A stretch of 20,919 bases of DNA from a virus: positions 8,650 through 29,568 of the IMG/VR virus record IMGVR_UViG_3300030406_002943. One strand, written 5' to 3'. A program made the position numbers and the translations under genes. Position 1 is the first letter of the stretch. Every line of letters starts with the position of its first letter. The notes beneath the pieces were generated by a model. That model was not told where the DNA came from. It did not search any database and saw only the letters and a list, made by a program, of their open reading frames with translations. Shown one piece after another: positions 7,994 through 20,104 of this stretch.

Positions 7994-8755
7994 ATGAGTA
8001 AAGGCGGCGGCAGACAAAGAACGATTACGCAAACGACTGCGCCTAGTGCGTTTGCACAGCCATTTTTACAATATGGCATGGAGGAGGCTAAGAACCTTTA
8101 TCAGTCCGCCTCTCCTCAGTATTTCCCTGAATCAACGGTAGTGGGCTTTAGCCCTGAAACAGAAATGGCTTTAGCGGGGTATCGTCAACAAGCCGCCGCA
8201 GGCTCTCCGCTTGTCCCTGCTGTTCAGGATGTGGTTATGCAGAACCTGATGGGCACTAACCCGTTACAGCAGGCGGCGTTTAATCCAGTTGTTGAGCGGA
8301 TGCAAGCTGAAACCGCAAAAGCAGGCCGATACGGGTCTGGATATGGTCAGGGAGCGATAGCGGCAGCGTTGGCACCTATGGCTTACCAAGCGCAACAGTC
8401 GGCGATTGCACAGGCACCAGCAGCCAGAGAGTTTGGTTTCGCTGACCTTAAAACTTTAGCGCAGGTAGGCGCGGCTCGTGAGGCTCAGGAGCAGGCTCAA
8501 CTTAGTGCAGATATTGAGCGGTTCCAGTTTGAGCAGATGCGCCCAGCACAGAAGCTGGCAGATTATATGACAATGGTGCAGGGCGGCTCAGGTGCTTTGG
8601 GTAGTCAGCAGATCACTCCGCAGTTCCGCAACCCTGCTCTGGGCTTCTTGTCCGGCGGGTTAGCTGGTGCACAGGGCGCACAGATGCTTGGCCTTTCTGG
8701 TGGTGCTGGTTTAGGTCTTGCGGCAGGCGGCGCATTGTTAGGAGGTCTGGGATAA
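7994..8755 (+). CDS. Putative internal virion (ejection) protein 1, 253 aa
   Basis: AAGGA lies ahead of the ATG. The N-terminus is SKGGGRQRTITQTTAP. The middle (residues about 60-190) is helical and rich in Ala and Gln, with AGRYGSGYGQGAIAAALAPM near 112-131. The last 40 residues are a Gly/Ala/Leu-rich hydrophobic stretch with repeated LGGG-like turns, like a membrane-penetrating segment. This combination and the position between the gp13-like gene and two more Gly/Ala-rich large proteins match internal core proteins of podoviruses. Such proteins leave the capsid first and extend the DNA channel across the cell envelope. Function is inferred from position and composition. Confidence 0.65.
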   Translation: MSKGGGRQRTITQTTAPSAFAQPFLQYGMEEAKNLYQSASPQYFPESTVVGFSPETEMALAGYRQQAAAGSPLVPAVQDVVMQNLMGTNPLQQAAFNPVVERMQAETAKAGRYGSGYGQGAIAAALAPMAYQAQQSAIAQAPAAREFGFADLKTLAQVGAAREAQEQAQLSADIERFQFEQMRPAQKLADYMTMVQGGSGALGSQQITPQFRNPALGFLSGGLAGAQGAQMLGLSGGAGLGLAAGGALLGGLG

Positions 8756-12057: not shown

Positions 12058-15000
12058 ATGAGCGGTATATTCCCAATAACTGGCAACAGTGCGCCTACTG
12101 GCCTTTATGACCACACCATAGACCAATCCCTGCGGTTTGAGGATGGGGATAGTGCATATTTAACCCGCACATTTGGGTCTGCTGGTAATCAAAGGACTTG
12201 GACTTGGAGTGCTTGGATTAAACGTGGTAATTTAGGTGGCTCTGTTATTCGTCTGTTCAATGCTAACGATGCAGGTTCACCATTCCGTCAAACATCTTTG
12301 CGATTTGATTCTGACCAATTAAGATTTTTTAACGATGCCCCAAGTGGTGTAACGACAGATGTTAAATCATCGGCTGTATTTCGTGACCCTTCTGCTTGGT
12401 ATAATATTGTATTAGCAATTGACACTACTTCAGGAACTGCATCAAACAGGGTCAAAATGTATGTTAATGGAAGCCAAATAACAGACCTTGCTACATCAAC
12501 ATATCCCACTCAAAATTTAGATATGTATGTCAATGCGGCAAGGTCGCATCAAATTGGTGCTAGTGTAAGCCCATCACAGCACTTTGATGGCTACATGGCA
12601 GAGGTTAATTTTATTGATGGTTCACAGTTAGACCCTACCTCATTTGGTGAAACAAAAGCAGGCATCTGGATACCTAAAGAATATACAGGCTCATATGGTA
12701 CAAACGGGTTTCATTTAACTTTTGCAGAAGCTGGAGACTTAGGTGCTGATAGTGCTTACACAACACACGATATTTTTGGTGATTCATCCGCTGTAGCTAC
12801 CTATTTATTCGATGGAAGCATTGTTGACGCTGGCGGTAATTATGACGGCACAACGACAAGCGTTACATTTACAGACGGCATTGTTGGAACTCAAGCTGGA
12901 GTTTTCGATGGTTCTAGTTCTAAGTGGGTGGCTGGTACGCATTTGCTTGGCGCACACGCAACAGCATCAGATATTTCGGTTTCTGGGTGGTTTCAGGTTT
13001 CATCAACTTTTCAATATCTAATTACTGATGGATTCGCTGGAACTGGTGGTGGTTACTTTGCTGTTTACCCAGAAACAAATGGTTATCTTCAGGTCGCTAC
13101 TGGTCATGCATCAAATGGGAACAATATTACAGTTACGGGCTCAGAAGTAGTAACGGACGGTGAGTGGCATCATTTTGTATTTACGAAATCTGTTAGCAGC
13201 GGAACAGCCACAGGTAAATTATGGGTAGATGGAAACTATGCGGGTTCAGACACAACAACAGACTCAACTGCGTACAGCAATGAGACTGCGTTTGGTCATT
13301 TTGCATATGCGAATACTTTTTATGCCTGCACATTAGACCAAATCAGAATATTTAACCGTGCGCTTACAGATGCAGAAGTCCAAGAATTAGCTGGCGGATA
13401 TGGCCTTGATGCGTCAGGTGTAGGCAATCACTTCAATCCTGCAAACTTGCAGTCTACGGATGTAGTGCTAGATAGCCCTACGAATAACTGGTGTACGATT
13501 AATTCAGTAGGCTCACTAGGAACTCAATCAGAAGGAAATTTAAAAACTGTTACAACAAGCTCTGGGTATGGGTCTGTTGTTGGTTCAATGGGCCAAACAT
13601 CAGGAAAGTGGTACTGGGAGGTCATTCCTGTTAGTAATGTTAGCGGCGCACCTCTTATTGGTGTGGTTGATGAAACATACGATGCAATGAGCAGCGCCAG
13701 CGCAGTTGGATATCTTTTATCTGGGGGAAAAGATAGTATTGCTTATTATAACAATGGGAGTAGCTATATAAATGGCACACCAAATTCATCTTATGGTGCA
13801 AGTTATACTGGCGATGACATTATTGGCGTTGCTCTTAACTTGGACGGTAATGAAATTACTTTTTATAAAAATGGAGTTTCACAAGGGGCTATTTCGCATA
13901 CGTTTTCTGGTGGTAATATTCTTCCAGCGGTGTCTGATGGAACTAACTCTGCATCGCAGACTTTTGCATTTAACTTTGGGCAAGACAGTTCATTCGCTGG
14001 CACAAAGACAGCGCAGGGTAATACAGACGCTAATGGCAAGGGTGACTTTTATTACACTCCTCCGTCTGGTTTCTTAGCCCTTTGTTCAGCCAACCTACCC
14101 GATCTTGACATAGACCCTGCACAGGCCGAAGAGCCAGCGGATTATTTCAACACGATTCTGTACACTGGTAACGGGGTATCAGCGACTGACACACAAGCAA
14201 TTTCGGGCGTAGGTTTTTCTCCCGATTTCACGTGGATCAAGAACAGAACTAGTGGAGCATTTCACATTTTAAATGACAGGGTTCGGGGTGCTGGCAAAAA
14301 TGTATTTATCAATAGCACTTTTGTGGAAAATAGTGGTGGGGCTAGCACTGGGGACTTGTTTACATCGTTTGATAGTGACGGGTTCACGGTAAATTATCAA
14401 TTTGCTGGTAGCACAAATTCTGGCACAAACCAAAACACAGATGCTTATGTAGCATGGAATTGGCTGGCTGGCGGTTCTGCTGTTAATAATACCACTGGCA
14501 CAATTCAATCGTCTGTGTCTGCGAATACAAAGGCAGGGTTTAGTATCGTTAATTGGACGGGCGATGGGTCAACATCAAATGGTGTTGGTCATGGGTTAGG
14601 CGCAAAGCCTGATTTAGCAATTTATAAAAGACGAACAGTCAGTACAAGTGACTGGTATGCTATTTTTGATGTTTTAGACGGAAGTTTTGACAGATTAAAA
14701 CCTAATGACACTAGTGTATTGGCCAATGCTACTGGTTACGGCACTATGTTGGACACAGATACAATTTCAAACTTTTCTTGGCCCAGTGGTGCAAGTATGC
14801 TTGCATACTGCTTCAGAAGCATTGATGGCTACAGCAAGGTTGGTATATACACGGGCAATGGGTCTACAGATGGCACGTTTGTTTACACAGGGTTTAGGCC
14901 AGCTTGGGTTATGTTGAAAAACACAGATGGGACATATGACTGGGTTATTTTTGACGCAAAGAGAAGCACATTTAATTTAATAGATGATTTCTTTGTGACA

Positions 15001-15165
15001 AACGATTCTGCAAATGAATACACAGCCAGCACTACTGTTAGTTTGGACTTTACTTCCAACGGGTTCAAAATCAGACAAAATTGGGCTGGCATGAACAACT
15101 CAGGTAATAAAATATTTTACATCGCTTTCGCAGAACAACCTTTTAAATATTCCAACGCTCGATAG
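12058..15165 (+). CDS. Large LamG/LamG/SPRY tail fibre or adhesin, 1035 aa
   Basis: AGAGGATAAC precedes the ATG. Domains in order: a LamG/concanavalin A-like beta-sandwich at about 25-215, with WTWSAWIKRGN and a DGYMAEVNFIDGSQLDPT closing motif. A second, distinct LamG follows at about 245-445, with SDISVSGWFQV, DGEWHHFVFTK and a FNRALTDAEVQELAGG closing motif. A SPRY-like domain lies at about 487-640 (SGKWYWEV, then VALNLDGNEITFYKNG). Three related beta-repeats (marine-phage DUF7483-like) begin near 694, 826 and 925, each with a (Y/W)TG(N/D)G start and a (F/A)xP(A/D) segment. LamG and SPRY modules bind glycans or proteins, so host adhesion is likely. The DNA is visibly more AT-rich than its neighbours. 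Confidence 0.88.
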   Translation: MSGIFPITGNSAPTGLYDHTIDQSLRFEDGDSAYLTRTFGSAGNQRTWTWSAWIKRGNLGGSVIRLFNANDAGSPFRQTSLRFDSDQLRFFNDAPSGVTTDVKSSAVFRDPSAWYNIVLAIDTTSGTASNRVKMYVNGSQITDLATSTYPTQNLDMYVNAARSHQIGASVSPSQHFDGYMAEVNFIDGSQLDPTSFGETKAGIWIPKEYTGSYGTNGFHLTFAEAGDLGADSAYTTHDIFGDSSAVATYLFDGSIVDAGGNYDGTTTSVTFTDGIVGTQAGVFDGSSSKWVAGTHLLGAHATASDISVSGWFQVSSTFQYLITDGFAGTGGGYFAVYPETNGYLQVATGHASNGNNITVTGSEVVTDGEWHHFVFTKSVSSGTATGKLWVDGNYAGSDTTTDSTAYSNETAFGHFAYANTFYACTLDQIRIFNRALTDAEVQELAGGYGLDASGVGNHFNPANLQSTDVVLDSPTNNWCTINSVGSLGTQSEGNLKTVTTSSGYGSVVGSMGQTSGKWYWEVIPVSNVSGAPLIGVVDETYDAMSSASAVGYLLSGGKDSIAYYNNGSSYINGTPNSSYGASYTGDDIIGVALNLDGNEITFYKNGVSQGAISHTFSGGNILPAVSDGTNSASQTFAFNFGQDSSFAGTKTAQGNTDANGKGDFYYTPPSGFLALCSANLPDLDIDPAQAEEPADYFNTILYTGNGVSATDTQAISGVGFSPDFTWIKNRTSGAFHILNDRVRGAGKNVFINSTFVENSGGASTGDLFTSFDSDGFTVNYQFAGSTNSGTNQNTDAYVAWNWLAGGSAVNNTTGTIQSSVSANTKAGFSIVNWTGDGSTSNGVGHGLGAKPDLAIYKRRTVSTSDWYAIFDVLDGSFDRLKPNDTSVLANATGYGTMLDTDTISNFSWPSGASMLAYCFRSIDGYSKVGIYTGNGSTDGTFVYTGFRPAWVMLKNTDGTYDWVIFDAKRSTFNLIDDFFVTNDSANEYTASTTVSLDFTSNGFKIRQNWAGMNNSGNKIFYIAFAEQPFKYSNAR

Positions 15166-15962: not shown

Positions 15963-16406
15963 ATGATTGATCCGGCAACTATAGCCCTCGCCACCTCTGC
16001 TTTCTCCCTCATCAAAAAGGGTTTTGCGGCGGGCCGTGAAATCGAATCAATGAGCAAGGACCTATCCCGCTGGGTGGGTGCCTGCCATGAGATTGAACGG
16101 TCCCACAATAAAGCTAAAACCCGCCGCTGGGGCAAGACCGTGCAGGAAGAGGCACTGGACACATGGGCCGCTATTCGCAAGGTAAAGAAACAGCGCGAAG
16201 AACTCCGGCTGTTTATGCTGTCTGTTGACCCCAGTGCGTGGAACCAGCTACTGCGGCTGGAGGGTCAAATCAGGAAACAGCGCATTGCAGAAGAAAAAAA
16301 GCGGCAGGAAGAGCGCGAAGAAATAATGATGTGGTCTATGGCCTTGGTCATATTCTCGGCAGTGGTCGGTTTCTTCTGGCTGGTGCTCCGCAAGGTACTC
16401 CAATAA
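15963..16406 (+). CDS. C-terminally membrane-anchored helical protein, 147 aa
   Basis: GAGGGG precedes the ATG. The N-terminus, IDPATIALATSAFSLIKKGFAAGREIESM, is shared with a common but unassigned family at the end of marine podovirus structural blocks. A long, strongly charged helical region rich in Lys, Arg and Glu spans about 35-120, followed by a hydrophobic helix at about 124-143 (MWSMALVIFSAVVGFFWLVL) and a basic end. This gives a cytoplasmic coiled coil with a C-terminal membrane anchor. No enzyme motif is visible. The stop codon is the first gene end before a regulatory region, and a tandem DNA repeat begins over it. Confidence 0.72.
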   Translation: MIDPATIALATSAFSLIKKGFAAGREIESMSKDLSRWVGACHEIERSHNKAKTRRWGKTVQEEALDTWAAIRKVKKQREELRLFMLSVDPSAWNQLLRLEGQIRKQRIAEEKKRQEEREEIMMWSMALVIFSAVVGFFWLVLRKVLQ

Positions 16407-16423
16407 AAGTTAAATAAAAGTTA
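16402..16423 (+). repeat. Tandem 11-bp direct repeat upstream of the promoter
   Basis: AATAAAAGTTA occurs at 16402-16412 and again at 16413-16423 with no spacer and no mismatch. The first copy covers the stop codon of the preceding gene. The 11-bp period is close to one helical turn, so a protein could bind both copies on the same DNA face, 11-33 bases upstream of the -35 element. An UP-element-like or activator site is possible; this is inference. Confidence 0.7.
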
Positions 16424-16433
16424 AGTCTAGGGG

Positions 16434-16462
16434 TTTACATTACTATTAACTTAGCCTATAGT
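16434..16462 (+). promoter_or_regulatory. Sigma70-like promoter of the small-gene cassette
   Basis: The -35 element TTTACA (16434-16439) and the -10 element TATAGT (16457-16462) each match the bacterial consensus at five of six bases, and the spacer is exactly 17 bases. It lies about 40 bases ahead of the first small gene, in the longest intergenic gap. It should be read by host RNA polymerase, unlike the compact virion genes, which show no comparable site. Transcription would start near 16469. Confidence 0.75.
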
Positions 16463-16465
16463 AAT
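16439..16465. promoter_or_regulatory. Operator-like inverted repeat overlapping the promoter
   Basis: ATTACTAT (16439-16446) and ATAGTAAT (16458-16465) form a perfect 8-bp inverted repeat separated by 11 bases. The left arm starts on the last base of the -35 element and the right arm covers five of the six -10 bases, so a bound protein would block RNA polymerase. Half-site centres are 19 bases apart, about two helical turns, as for many dimeric helix-turn-helix repressors. A hairpin role is unlikely because most of it lies upstream of the predicted transcription start. Confidence 0.5.
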
Positions 16466-16501
16466 ATGGTGGGGAGGTTCCCACAGTCAGAGGAGAGAAA
16501 A

Positions 16502-16711
16502 ATGGCAAAAATTACTTTGAAAAAAATTGTTGAAGCAAAACAGCACAAGGGTGCTGTATGGACGGTGAAGGGTGCTGAACACATCCGCATCCATGAGATT
16601 GGGAACACATGGTTGGCTGACGAATACCGCAACGGGGAATATGTCCGCAACATTATGAAGCACTCTTATCGTTCTTCTCTTATCGAAAACTTATCAAAGG
16701 CAGGGGCTTAA
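16502..16711 (+). CDS. Small cassette protein 1, 69 aa, unknown
   Basis: The start at 16502 is chosen because AGGAG lies eight bases upstream; an in-frame ATG at 16466 lies over the promoter and has no ribosome-binding site. The product is basic and soluble, starting MAKITLKKIVEAKQHKG, with a strand-rich middle (GAVWTVKGAEHIRI, then IGNTWLADEYRNGEYV) and a C-terminal helix. It looks like a small alpha/beta or SH3-like beta protein. No family is recognised. As first gene behind a strong promoter it is probably made early and in quantity. A host-takeover or counter-defence role is a guess from location and size. Confidence 0.75.
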   Translation: MAKITLKKIVEAKQHKGAVWTVKGAEHIRIHEIGNTWLADEYRNGEYVRNIMKHSYRSSLIENLSKAGA

Positions 16712-16718
16712 CAGCCCC
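16703..16718 (+). other. Stem-loop over the stop codon of small cassette gene 1
   Basis: GGGGCT (16703-16708) pairs perfectly with AGCCCC (16713-16718) around a four-base TAAC loop that contains part of the stop codon. No U-tract follows, so it is not a good terminator. It could stabilise the mRNA or modulate reading into the next gene. Confidence 0.4.
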
Positions 16719-16746
16719 GCCCCAACCTTAGTCAAAGGAGGATAAG

Positions 16747-16989
16747 ATGACTTATTTTTACGAACTCAGGGCTTTTAACCACAAAGGCGAATGTTTCGAT
16801 GTGCGCGAGTATGATTGCGAAAAAACTGCCACTTTAAAATTTAGGCGTCTGTCAACCAACACAGAAAACGCTTACAAGGCGTTAAAAAAGGCTGGAGTTA
16901 AAACGACAATCGTTGCCCACCAGATACAACTGGTAAAGCGTGACTATAACTACCTTGGCCTTGAAGAACTGGCCAACTGGACAGCGTAA
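16747..16989 (+). CDS. Small cassette protein 2, 80 aa, unknown
   Basis: AAAGGAGG, a near-perfect Shine-Dalgarno, lies about five bases before the ATG. The product begins TYFYELRAFNHKGECFDVREYDC, two strands with two cysteines, then a helix containing NTENAYKALKKAGV and another strand IVAHQIQLVKRDYNY. The overall beta-beta-alpha-beta pattern suggests a compact alpha/beta domain. The net charge is slightly basic. No transmembrane segment, zinc motif or catalytic signature is seen, and I recognise no family. It lies in the same transcript as cassette genes 1 and 3. Confidence 0.75.
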   Translation: MTYFYELRAFNHKGECFDVREYDCEKTATLKFRRLSTNTENAYKALKKAGVKTTIVAHQIQLVKRDYNYLGLEELANWTA

Positions 16990-16999
16990 GGAGGCTAGT

Positions 17000-17173
17000 A
17001 TGTGGTTTACATCTTATCGGCATGAAGTGGAGCGGCAACCCGAAGGTTGGGTTGTCAGCATCTGGCAGGGTGCCAAGCTGATTCAGCAGTTGCCTTTTGA
17101 GAGTTGCAACGCGGCCCTATCTTTTGTAGAAAAGAGAGAAGGCTGTCAGTCTTCCTCCTTTGACAAACGATAG
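17000..17173 (+). CDS. Small cassette protein 3, 57 aa, unknown
   Basis: The start at 17000 is chosen because AAGGAGG lies five bases upstream. The frame extends back to 16940, but that would overlap the preceding gene without a ribosome-binding site. The product has WFTSYRHEVERQPEGWVVSIWQ, a beta-strand pair rich in Trp, followed by KLIQQLPFESCNAALSFVEKR, a helix. The layout resembles very small strand-helix proteins that bind other proteins or nucleic acid. Nothing is recognisable by family. It is the last cassette gene, ending 20 bases before the terminator hairpin. Confidence 0.7.
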   Translation: MWFTSYRHEVERQPEGWVVSIWQGAKLIQQLPFESCNAALSFVEKREGCQSSSFDKR

Positions 17174-17192
17174 TCTTGTTTCCTCCCTGACT

Positions 17193-17225
17193 GGCCCTCA
17201 CTTCGGTGGGGGCCTTTCTTTATTT
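17193..17225 (+). terminator. Intrinsic terminator at the convergence point
   Basis: A 9-bp stem (17193-17201 with 17206-17214, one G-U pair) closes a TTCG loop flanked by C and G, the exceptionally stable cUUCGg tetraloop. TTTCTTTATTT follows directly. It terminates the plus-strand cassette and any virion-block read-through. On the minus strand no U-tract follows the hairpin, so it is weaker for the opposing operon, whose last stop codon lies at 17220-17222. Confidence 0.88.
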
Positions 17226-17594
17226 GGTGTCGGTCTTCTTTGACTTGTCGTATGACCTCATGCCAGATATGCCGAGCATACCGAACATCAGGGGCATCAT
17301 TACAGACATATCTGCCTGCGGGATAGTCACGCCGAATCCAGAGGCAATCGGGCTGACCATGTAATTTATGCCTAGCGATAGGCCACAAATCCAGCCAATA
17401 AGGGGCCTCCAGCTTGCCTGAAACCAGTTCCCCTTGGCATCTGCCTTGAGAACCTCTATTTGCGCCAGAGCGAGCTCCTGAGCGTGTTTCTCGGCCATTG
17501 TGCTTAACTTAAATGCCAACTCCTGTTTTGTGTCAGCGTCAGGAATAAATTTGTCCAATATGCCGGACACTGCGGGTATGAGTGCTTGGATCAT
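17220..17594 (-). CDS. Holin, gene-transfer-agent type (GTA_holin_3TM-like)
   Basis: The 124-residue product begins IQALIPAVSGILDKFIPDAD. An amphipathic helix (about 22-50) follows, then a SWRP motif at 61-64 and hydrophobic segments at about 64-86 and 94-112, with a charged, Lys-rich tail. The WRP motif before the first membrane helix is typical of the holin family described from gene transfer agents of alphaproteobacteria. Holins form membrane lesions at a set time, releasing the cytoplasmic endolysin. GGAG lies eight bases before the ATG, which overlaps the preceding stop (ATGA). It is the last gene of the minus-strand operon, while the lysozyme lies four genes upstream. Confidence 0.82.
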   Translation of the reverse strand: MIQALIPAVSGILDKFIPDADTKQELAFKLSTMAEKHAQELALAQIEVLKADAKGNWFQASWRPLIGWICGLSLGINYMVSPIASGFGVTIPQADMSVMMPLMFGMLGISGMRSYDKSKKTDTK

Positions 17595-17800
17595 TCTACA
17601 AACTCCAATATTTCGCCGTTTTCCATTTTAACCGTAAACTCTTTGCAGGACCACTTTTGGTCAAAGTTGTTTGTGTGGCCCACGTTTCGTTTAATCTTGC
17701 GCCGGACAGACAGGCACTCAGACAGAGACTGGTACGGGGTGTACTCAATTTTTTTGTCTGAAATCATCAGCAACAAAACGAATGTTTCAATGATCGCCAT
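17591..17800 (-). CDS. Small N-terminally hydrophobic protein, 69 aa
   Basis: A short hydrophobic stretch (residues about 2-13, AIIETFVLLLMI) is followed by a charged part with YTPYQSLSECLSVRRKIKRN and a C-terminal WSCKEFTVKMENGEI strand. Two cysteines (about 30 and 53) could form a disulphide if exported. The pattern 'YTPYQSL-ECL' followed by 'WSCKEF' is seen in small unassigned proteins of marine phages. No lipobox is present, so it is not a classic outer-membrane spanin. It overlaps the genes on both sides (14 and 4 bases) and sits directly before the holin gene, so a lysis role is possible. Confidence 0.7.
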   Translation of the reverse strand: MAIIETFVLLLMISDKKIEYTPYQSLSECLSVRRKIKRNVGHTNNFDQKWSCKEFTVKMENGEILEFVE

Positions 17801-18182
17801 TTCGCAGTTTCTCTATGTTCTGTTCAAGATTACTGATTCGCTTTTCATAAAATTCTAGCGTCAGTTTTTGTTGTTGATCATACGGGGCTTTGCCTGATTC
17901 GATATCTGTCTGTAGTTTCTCTAGTTCACTGGCAATGTGCTCAATCAACATAAACTGCTCACTGTCGGCAGGAAGGCTACCCATCTCACCACGGGGCCAC
18001 TTGATTCGGAACTCAGTGTTCTGCTCCAAGTCAGCCTTCATCATTGTGATGGTTGTCTGAATACTGTGAAGCTGTGAAGTCAGTGTGAAATATGCCCACG
18101 TTGCCACGCTGACTGCCACCAACATAGAAATAATGTTTCTGAGAGGCAGTGACAGTTCAGTATTTTCACTGACCCTTGGCAT
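17787..18182 (-). CDS. Membrane-anchored coiled-coil protein, spanin-like topology, 131 aa
   Basis: One hydrophobic helix at about residues 15-37 (RNIISMLVAVSVATWAYFTL) is followed by a long soluble part. It contains a QLHSIQTTITMMKADLEQN coil, an FRIKWPRGEMGSLPADSEQF linker and a second coil to the C-terminus. This N-in, C-out layout is that of an inner-membrane spanin, which would join an outer-membrane partner to disrupt the envelope of a Gram-negative host. No overlapping lipoprotein partner is found, so the spanin label remains tentative. The start overlaps the previous stop by one base (TAATG). Confidence 0.72.
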   Translation of the reverse strand: MPRVSENTELSLPLRNIISMLVAVSVATWAYFTLTSQLHSIQTTITMMKADLEQNTEFRIKWPRGEMGSLPADSEQFMLIEHIASELEKLQTDIESGKAPYDQQQKLTLEFYEKRISNLEQNIEKLRNGDH

Positions 18183-18819: not shown

Positions 18820-19034
18820 CACACGGCCTCATCAAACTCGCCCTGCATCAATTTAGACGCTGTTACGCCCAGATTATACATGGCCTCTGTCAGTTCATTA
18901 TCGCTGGCCTTACCCCGCTGTGACATAAACACTTCTATAGCCTCACCTGACCTTGGGCAGAAACTAACTGTTACGGCCATTCCGGCCCCCACATTTGTAG
19001 TGATGCACGGTCTGCGATTAGGAACTTGTCTCAT
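18819..19034 (-). CDS. TSCPD-like (ribonucleotide reductase C-terminal-type) small protein, 71 aa
   Basis: The product starts with RQVPNRRPCITTNV, followed by GMAVTVSF and GEAIEVFMSQRGKASDNEL, and ends with MYNLGVTASKLMQGE. The order 'NRR ... VTV-F ... (A/G)-EVF(M/I)S ... GK-S ... (V/L)-(A/S)' resembles stand-alone TSCPD proteins of alphaproteobacterial phages. The TSCPD domain is otherwise found at the C-terminus of class II ribonucleotide reductases. The Thr-Ser-Cys-Pro-Asp signature itself is not preserved, and no reductase catalytic domain is present. GGAG lies seven bases before the ATG. Its role, perhaps in nucleotide supply for replication, is unproven. Confidence 0.55.
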   Translation of the reverse strand: MRQVPNRRPCITTNVGAGMAVTVSFCPRSGEAIEVFMSQRGKASDNELTEAMYNLGVTASKLMQGEFDEAV

Positions 19035-19476
19035 TGATTATCTCCACTGCTTTTGCCCAGCTATCTGATTCGAGGTCTGGGTCATTAAAAAATGATATAG
19101 GTTTTGTGTACTTCTTTGCCCGCACAGAAGTCACTGGCTGATACCAGACGGCCCTCTGCTCAGAAGCTACGCAGGCTAGAATATCATAGTCCTTAAGCGT
19201 GGGCATCCGTTTATTGCCACCAATCCCTGTTTGAAAGTGCACTCTGTGTTTGTGACCTTTCCCCTGCCGTGAGGCTTGGCAGGCTTTGACCTGTATGCGG
19301 AGGGTCTGTGCTGATTCGGGGTGCCACGCTATCAAATCCACTGCATCCTGTTGCGCTAAAGAAACACGCCAACCCCTTTGGAGGATTGACGCGGCGGCAA
19401 TATATTCACCAGCAAGGCCGGAAGCTGTCTGACTAATTATTCCGTCAGCGATAAAATTCCTGCTCAGTGTCATCAT
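19018..19476 (-). CDS. PD-(D/E)XK nuclease-like protein, 152 aa
   Basis: The N-terminal half follows the small PD-(D/E)XK nuclease layout: Glu24 in the first helix (LAGEYIAAASILQRGW), Asp47 in AVDLIAW, then Gln62-Val63-Lys64 in RIQVKA. This pattern occurs in Holliday junction resolvase-type and group I intron-homing-like endonucleases, with Gln or Glu before the catalytic Lys. The remainder is basic (RQGKGHKHRVHF) and ends in a helix, as for a DNA-binding surface. It might resolve branched replication intermediates or cut DNA during recombination. The start is ATG at 19476 or 19473; no clear ribosome-binding site is visible and the gene overlaps its upstream neighbour. Confidence 0.7.
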   Translation of the reverse strand: MMTLSRNFIADGIISQTASGLAGEYIAAASILQRGWRVSLAQQDAVDLIAWHPESAQTLRIQVKACQASRQGKGHKHRVHFQTGIGGNKRMPTLKDYDILACVASEQRAVWYQPVTSVRAKKYTKPISFFNDPDLESDSWAKAVEIINETSS

Positions 19477-19636: not shown

Positions 19637-19757
19637 TCAACATTTTCCTCATCAAAACAGCGTGTTGACTGTGGGGGTAAGACAGGTGGGAGATAATCAC
19701 CCAGCCTGCCTTTTCATATTTTTTTATGTCATCGTGCGTGACATACCGCAGGGTCAT
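19587..19757 (-). CDS. Small conserved phage-type protein, 56 aa
   Basis: I choose ATG at 19757, which overlaps the DnaA-like stop as ATGA; a GTG at 19769 in the same frame, with GGGAAG upstream, is an alternative. The product has LRYVTHDDIKKYEKAGWV near the N-terminus, then a SHLSYPHSQHAVLMRK segment. A 'YVTHDDI-KYE--GW' opening followed by an H-x-x-x-VLM motif recurs in tiny unassigned proteins of marine phages. It may be a small fold with His-rich metal binding, but nothing in the sequence proves this. Confidence 0.65.
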   Translation of the reverse strand: MTLRYVTHDDIKKYEKAGWVIISHLSYPHSQHAVLMRKMLNDPRRTRANYFARTIR

Positions 19758-20104
19758 GCGCTCAGACACCGCTCAACTTCCCTAAGGTGACGGTTGACTT
19801 TCGAGCGGCCCCTGCCCCGCTTGTCGAGTTTTTTGACCGCATAGTAAACGGTAGTGTGGTCGCGCCCAAATGCCCTGCCCACTTCTGGATAGCTACAACC
19901 CAGCAGTCTGACGGACAGGTACATTGCAATGTGCCGCTCGTCTGAGTTATAACGCCGTTTGGACAACAGTTCTGCCACTGACACTCCTGTGACCTCGCTG
20001 GTGATTCGGATGACCTTTTCAATGCGCTGGTCATAGTGCATCAAACGGGACGGTTTCACCTCGCCTCCGAAGATTTTCAAAATAATTTTCTCTAAGACAC
20101 TCAT
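19754..20104 (-). CDS. Stand-alone DnaA domain IV (DNA-binding) protein, 116 aa
   Basis: Residues about 25-115 match the C-terminal DNA-binding domain of the bacterial initiator DnaA. The match includes a KRRYNSDERHIAMYLSVRLL segment at 49-68, SYPEVGRAFG at 71-80 and the signature RDHTTVYYAVKKL at 81-93. That signature corresponds to the RDHTTV motif which contacts DnaA boxes. The AAA+ ATPase (domain III) is wholly missing. The start at 20104 has AAAGGAGG upstream with a longer than usual 12-base spacing. The gene lies in an operon with SSB, so a role in phage origin recognition, or interference with host initiation, is likely. The 5' end overlaps the zinc-finger gene by 74 bases. Confidence 0.88.
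   Translation of the reverse strand: MSVLEKIILKIFGGEVKPSRLMHYDQRIEKVIRITSEVTGVSVAELLSKRRYNSDERHIAMYLSVRLLGCSYPEVGRAFGRDHTTVYYAVKKLDKRGRGRSKVNRHLREVERCLSA

Follow-up and report, generated by a model that had tools for sequence, protein, structure and literature searches.

Integrons carry small genes head to tail as cassettes, each of which ends in a palindromic attC site. In bacterial operons, GC-rich palindromes of the REP type stand at gene ends in intergenic positions and are thought to protect the upstream messenger. How single genes are cleanly exchanged in mosaic phage genomes is a long-standing question. In the lambdoid model, short conserved boundary sequences stand at the module junctions of mosaic phages; most mosaic junctions show no conserved boundary sequence (PMC3029335). 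The 13-bp start element of cluster K mycobacteriophages (SAS/ESAS, GGGATAGGAGCCC), with its 17-bp inverted repeats upstream, stays with a given gene family (PMC3203893), and archaeal viruses place conserved regulatory sequences before variable early anti-defence genes (PMC11065993).

In this study, we performed a computational analysis on a unit of small genes in a phage genome from IMG/VR. The window, that is, the whole stretch of 20,919 nucleotides that was analysed, covers positions 8650-29568 of a 29,568-base record, which is probably incomplete at its end. The nearest named phage is C72C1 (OQ984150, 34.9 kb), a genome deposited as complete, with a terminase that is 91% identical; the remaining named phages are far off, and among those with a named host Sinorhizobium phage phiM5 comes nearest (47%). 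The metagenome contigs and phage relatives point to a marine group. Our analyses suggested that the unit is quite likely a hypervariable accessory-gene expression site of C72C1-like marine phages, the cargo of which is swapped through shared flanks and linkers.

Results

Composition of the Slot

The unit follows the virion block and is bounded by a convergent holin gene; its features are as follows (window coordinates).

15963-16406, plus strand: conserved 147-aa gene, last of the virion block and left flank of the slot (29 IMG/VR loci and C72C1)
16434-16462, plus strand: promoter TTTACA-17-TATAGT, with a conserved CTTAGC directly 5' of the -10 box (10 of 12 consensus bases)
16469-16484, plus strand: 5' UTR hairpin GUGGGG-AGGU-UCCCAC, located a few nt away from where the transcript is inferred to start (covarying arms in relatives)
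16491-16495, plus strand: Shine-Dalgarno AGGAG of gene 1
16502-16711, plus strand: cargo gene 1 (P1, P0002), 69 aa (five homologues besides itself)
16699-16721, plus strand: linker hairpin GGC-a-GGGGCU-UAAC-AGCCCC-GCC between genes 1 and 2, with the stop UAA of gene 1 (16709-16711) in its loop
16734-16741, plus strand: Shine-Dalgarno AAAGGAGG of gene 2
16747-16989, plus strand: cargo gene 2 (P2, P0003), 80 aa (12 homologues besides itself)
16988-16994, plus strand: Shine-Dalgarno AAGGAGG of gene 3
17000-17173, plus strand: gene 3 (P3, P0001), 57 aa, conserved core gene and right flank of the slot (25 homologues)
17193-17222, plus strand: intrinsic terminator, 9-bp stem (17193-17214), CUUCGG/UUCG loop and T tract (z = -4.2)
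17220-17594, minus strand: convergent holin gene GTA_holin_3TM, right boundary of the slot (Pfam PF11351, E = 5e-17; PHROG holin, E = 1e-29)

The original prediction had read this region as one self-contained cassette of three small genes, in a slot that might hold variable small genes in related phages. All three genes were recovered at 69, 80 and 57 aa, and synteny bore out an independently driven accessory unit, as the slot holds 0 to 4 differing genes in about 20 relatives. The single three-gene cassette did not survive the comparison, because gene 3, with its 25 homologues, is a core gene that is present without cargo in C72C1 and L015-L018. These comparisons indicate that the unit is composed of two cargo genes and a fixed right flank, gene 3. 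In C72C1 and L015-L018, neither cargo nor the slot promoter was found, yet P3 is present. L005 likewise has P3 with an empty slot, and P3 adjoins the terminator and the convergent holin gene even where it stands alone in the slot (C72C1, L015, L016 and L018). The 147-aa gene on the left falls in a PHROG with no assigned function.

Among about 20 distinct relatives, the 147-aa gene and P3 lie between 26 nt and about 2 kb apart, and the slot genes mostly stand behind the same promoter and covarying 5' hairpin. Comparison of the window with L010 showed 85% DNA identity up to 16507 and 95% from 16990, with no match between; the left match stops 6 nt into gene 1, and the right match resumes at the Shine-Dalgarno of gene 3 (16990). 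Since L010 aligns only outside 16507-16990, gene content has been replaced over the interval that runs from the start codon of gene 1 to the Shine-Dalgarno of gene 3. The holin of L010 is identical to that of the window, and its insert contains a GIY-YIG-like gene, read by eye. The slots of L012 and L109 have two small genes each, that of L007 a multi-gene set including a P2 homologue, and slot genes of L013 and L114 encode a GIY-YIG domain (Pfam E = 3e-10 and 6e-12). Larger slot genes in L034, L105, L108, L111 and L113 display HNH-like motifs by eye, and the two representatives of this group that were scanned gave no Pfam match.

Homologues of P1 and P2 mostly sit elsewhere in other members of the group, often beside linkers. 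Every one of the five P1 homologues ends in a linker of the stop-hairpin kind, and these homologues surfaced only by way of the linker, a protein scan of viral contigs with P1 having returned nothing. Many of the 12 P2 homologues are likewise located at linker junctions.

The three proteins had been described as belonging to no recognised family, and this was upheld by Pfam, PHROGs, NCBIfam and PADLOC, none of which gave a family at a meaningful score for the small proteins of the unit. Homology to structural proteins, one of the two outcomes that the original prediction had set against itself, was not found for these genes, and PDB sequence profiles yielded weak, chance-like matches only. AlphaFold2 predicted a beta-beta-alpha-beta-beta model for P2 (pLDDT 95.7, pTM 0.83) and, at moderate confidence, a five-stranded beta sheet with a C-terminal helix for P1 (pLDDT 80.6). 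Fold searches with P2 against PDB and BFVD and with P1 against PDB detected no match reaching E 0.001; in BFVD, P2 is similar to numerous small, uncharacterised phage proteins (best E 1.6e-3, TM 0.62), which suggest no function for it. None of the three proteins matched a helix-turn-helix family, and the models of P1 and P2 are not helix-turn-helix. P3 as an autoregulator of the slot promoter was unsupported, and L015-L018 possess P3 without this promoter.

Expression Signals

The near-consensus promoter proposed earlier was confirmed and is kept in about 14 relatives. Dinucleotide shuffling of the 95-nt intergenic stretch produced an equally good promoter 0.9% of the time, and the whole window contains 23 promoter-like sites where 20.9 are expected by chance; because this count is at chance level, the case for the promoter rests on its conservation. 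The leader hairpin is similar in this respect: its stability taken alone is not significant in the window sequence (z = -1.3), and the evidence for it is therefore the covariation of its arms, which change together among relatives (GTGGG/CCCAC, GTAGG/CCTAC, ACAGG/CCTGT and ATGGGG/CCCCGT). The conserved leader precedes the first cargo gene, mostly ending in CACAGTCAGAGGAG, and is missing from the slots of L033, L104 and L108. This hairpin, the stop-codon hairpin and the separate status of gene 3 had all been overlooked in the original prediction.

Strong Shine-Dalgarno sequences and weaker ribosome sites upstream had also been claimed, and both hold: genes 1, 2 and 3 match the anti-Shine-Dalgarno complement over 5, 7 and 8 nt, against an average of about 3.5 nt for the 20 forward genes before the unit. 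The cUUCGg terminator was confirmed as well, 0 of 200 shuffles being equally stable. A search of the window against Rfam returned no family.

Stop-Codon Linker Hairpin

The hairpin between genes 1 and 2 has a predicted stability of -16.2 kcal/mol (z = -3.45), which 0 of 200 shuffles reached. Its consensus, GGCGGCGGCYTAACRGCCCCGCC, is positioned by the stop codon with which the preceding gene ends. Exact-match scans, which favour conserved linkers by design, located the 18-mer GGCTTAACAGCCCCGCCC in at least 119 IMG/VR stretches and each of two linker versions in at least 119. In bacterial and archaeal genomes this 18-mer was found at 4 places in 257 Gb, about chance level, and a 46-nt linker query against phage records gave no full-length match. 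The matches lie mostly at the 3' ends of small genes, in frame, with a ribosome site and then a start codon behind them; among the matches listed, an in-frame gene of at least 40 codons precedes the linker in 82 of 94 and a downstream gene is present in 88 of 94.

Stop hairpins were also counted in a set of 176 tandem small-gene ends from loci fetched for holin or slot genes, independently of the linker. With the stop required to lie in a 3-5 nt loop and a stability of -14 kcal/mol or better, they were present at 20 of the 176 ends vs 14 of 10,827 control stop triplets; this count supersedes a weak contrast given earlier by looser criteria. In the same set, 89% of tandem small-gene junctions have no strong stop hairpin, and the P2/P3 junction of the window has none either.

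If the stem matters, a C-G pair should be acceptable in place of the closing U-A, whereas a C-A mismatch should not. A scan for GGCCTAACRGCCCCGCCC returned at least 120 stretches. The non-redundant counts, with earlier loci included and among the matches listed, were C..G 116, C..A 1, T..A 101 and T..G 3 (the last without a dedicated scan), so that paired C..G outnumbers mispaired C..A by about 116:1, these being counts of inherited linkers and not of independent events. Homologous genes chosen by protein similarity have stems that differ and yet remain closed, including those with TGA or TAG stops, as seen in the P2 family (GGCAGGGGCGTAAGCCCCCGCC, GGCGGCGCAGTGAGCGCCGTCC, GGGTGGCGGCCTAACGGCCCCACC and GGCGGCTTAACAGCCGCC).

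Two other explanations of the element were set aside. A C-terminal AAA degradation tag as the driver of conservation is less likely, as the P2 homologue of L006 ends in Q followed by TGA and its hairpin is closed. An intrinsic terminator was rejected for want of a U tract, the next letters being, for example, CCCAACC or AGAAGGGAG.

Gene Exchange at the Linker

Among the matches listed, 195 junctions join 86 upstream families to 103 downstream families in 173 combinations; multiple partners occur in 41 of the upstream and 36 of the downstream families. For 52 pairs that share a downstream gene but have different upstream genes, identity is 0.98 on the shared side of the linker and 0.29 on the other, and for 59 pairs with a common upstream gene and different downstream genes the values are 0.88 and about 0.3. 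A short sequence shared between unrelated genes, as boundary exchange would leave behind, was thus found in 173 family pairs, with a fall of identity on either side. Pairs with the same downstream gene agree in linker version in 137 of 158 cases, and pairs with the same upstream gene in 121 of 165 (48% expected); 103 of 126 linker loci have proteins in common with this phage group, all of these counts being among the matches listed.

A Second Array

A second array lies outside the window, beside the terminase gene (1720-2766 of the record, L002/G000:C1, minus strand). It consists of the motif CTTAGCTTATAGTTATAT, a 202-aa gene whose end, GGGGGCGTAAGCCCCC, holds the stop codon in its loop, and then genes of 59 and 61 aa; the 61-aa protein resembles, by eye, that of a linker-borne gene in L150 (MKIKIETT). 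At the equivalent position of C72C1 (record 17289-17873), two genes carry stop hairpins. The motif CTTAGCNTATAGTWATAT is shared by the slot promoter and the region 5' of the second array, and since promoter motif and stop hairpin recur at both places, the genome has two array sites of one design.

Discussion

Comparison With Described Systems

The pattern fits cassette exchange at conserved boundaries rather than an integron. As in the lambdoid boundaries, a short shared sequence joins unrelated genes, which was explained there by homologous recombination (PMC3029335); unlike them, the linker is a compensated hairpin containing a stop codon, and it recurs at hundreds of junctions and in dozens of families, tied to small accessory genes. 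The SAS/ESAS elements are likewise repeated short elements and inverted repeats before a subset of non-structural genes near the ribosome site (PMC3203893), whereas the linker is fixed at the stop codon of the gene before it and keeps changing partners; an assignment to SAS/ESAS was rejected, as the consensus is stop-anchored and is not the 13-bp element at gene starts. In archaeal viruses, too, one conserved strong promoter region precedes variable small genes (PMC11065993), but the slot has a bacterial sigma70-type promoter, one per array rather than one per gene.

Like integron cassettes, the arrays contain small genes placed head to tail that end in a palindromic element. In contrast to attC, which has two inversely repeated core-site pairs, the linker read from the sequence is a single 23-bp hairpin with an AAC motif in the loop and no core-site pair, and attC was therefore rejected. 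A GCTTAAC resembling RYYYAAC is present at the linker loop, and versions with the loops GTAA and AGTGA lack it entirely. IntI was not recognised in the available part of the genome, and Pfam scans of some array genes returned serine Resolvase only. REP palindromes share with the linker the GC-rich palindrome at gene ends within operons, but are intergenic, whereas the linker palindrome takes in the last codons and the stop.

Proposed Explanation and Alternatives

Sequence comparison shows gene exchange and conservation of the hairpin; beyond it, we infer which enzyme may act, what the hairpin may do in the RNA and what the cargo may be for. The expression site consists of a fixed left part (sigma70-type promoter, conserved 5' hairpin and first ribosome site) and a fixed right part (core gene P3, terminator and convergent holin), between which the genes are replaced from relative to relative. 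The small genes are arranged head to tail, each with its own Shine-Dalgarno and often with a GC-rich hairpin end that has the stop in the loop, and different genes meet at this stop hairpin in many combinations. Exchange may proceed through homologous recombination or single-strand annealing at the flanks and linkers that the genomes have in common; the annotation of C72C1 includes a Sak-like annealing protein. Any gene with a linker end could then be joined to any other without damage, and the hairpin, retained in the messenger, may insulate or stabilise each cistron. Least certain of all, the cargo might comprise non-essential accessory genes directed at host functions or competing phages, in the company of selfish homing endonucleases. 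Against this explanation, stop hairpins form a minority among tandem small-gene junctions, and other recombination routes could shuffle gene order while the hairpin is kept for RNA reasons alone.

First, genes 1 and 2 could specifically serve anti-defence or host takeover, as the original prediction proposed, and be expressed from the sigma70-type promoter as soon as infection begins. Such a role is plausible, and we regard it as a serious possibility while leaning slightly away from it. Their own host-type promoter, strong ribosome sites and small size agree with it, as do the quick turnover of slot content, the sharing of these families among the phages of the group and the arrangement of early anti-defence genes in archaeal viruses (PMC11065993). 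However, no family, PADLOC or significant fold match supports it, and homing endonucleases also occupy the slot, so that an accessory position does not imply anti-defence.

Second, the stop hairpin may be purely an RNA element, serving 3' end protection, processing or cistron insulation, with recombination as a by-product of mosaicism. This is a tenable if somewhat doubtful reading. It accounts for the constant coding-strand orientation with the stop in the loop, the compensated stem, the lack of a U tract and hence of an intrinsic terminator, and the variation of stems among homologous genes, which suggests that shape is kept besides sequence. Yet the exact sequence is strongly kept too (at least 119 stretches per version), and the breakpoints of similarity are located at the linker.

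Third, the arrays could form a dedicated cassette system, a phage analogue of the integron, in which the stop palindromes would be recombination joints for an annealing protein or a serine recombinase and small counter-host genes would be reshuffled behind fixed promoters; we consider this unlikely. The narrower proposal that a dedicated site-specific recombinase acts on the linkers, such as the small serine recombinase that ends several arrays, is slightly less likely still. We detected 19 distinct genes of this kind, mostly of 208-215 aa and with the Pfam Resolvase domain (e.g., L151:1534-2172 and L187:4572-5201). Twelve of the 19 start within 60 nt after a linker, none is followed by a linker within 3 kb downstream on the same strand, and the most promiscuous downstream gene, with 12 upstream families among the matches listed, is a serine recombinase; the promiscuity of this gene together with the absence of a linker after it makes the serine recombinase a candidate enzyme. 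The recombinase motif YYRVST, present in 33 fetched loci, was nevertheless not found in C72C1 or in the available part of this genome, both of which have swapped slots and stop hairpins.

Finally, apparent shuffling through chimeric metagenome assembly at a repeated linker is very improbable: although the contigs are mostly metagenome-assembled and have the conserved linker in common, a linker of about 23 bp offers little sequence for seeding false joins, several gene pairs recur across samples, the upstream genes mostly run in frame into their own stop, the slot exchange of L010 is bounded by long unique flanks, and C72C1, deposited as complete, has stop hairpins at its second array.

The accessory-gene expression site with exchange at the linker offers a concrete junction sequence for mosaic phage evolution, and with one compensated, sequence-defined linker at hundreds of junctions, the question of single-gene exchange becomes directly testable. 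In addition, the linker and the slot promoter can be used as bait for the accessory gene pool of the group, which includes many small proteins without known function that may act against the host.

Additional Observations

A TTAA-N7-TTAA sequence just 5' of the slot promoter (16410-16424) has the form of an alphaproteobacterial CtrA site; it was set aside as the sole copy in the genome, with a frequency of 1.9% by shuffling, and is missing from most relatives. A short run of N or masked bases lies just 5' of the window (L002, about 8638-8649), near the 3' end of the portal gene, and gives X residues there. The 152-aa protein at 19018-19476 (minus strand) has a weak PD-(D/E)XK endonuclease match under the Pfam cut-off and is possibly a resolvase, and the 116-aa protein at 19754-20104 (minus strand) is barely more than the DnaA DNA-binding domain IV (Bac_DnaA_C, E = 2e-18), without the ATPase part. 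The 1035-aa protein at 12058-15165, with Laminin_G_3, SPRY and DUF7483 domains, is probably a tail or receptor-binding protein.
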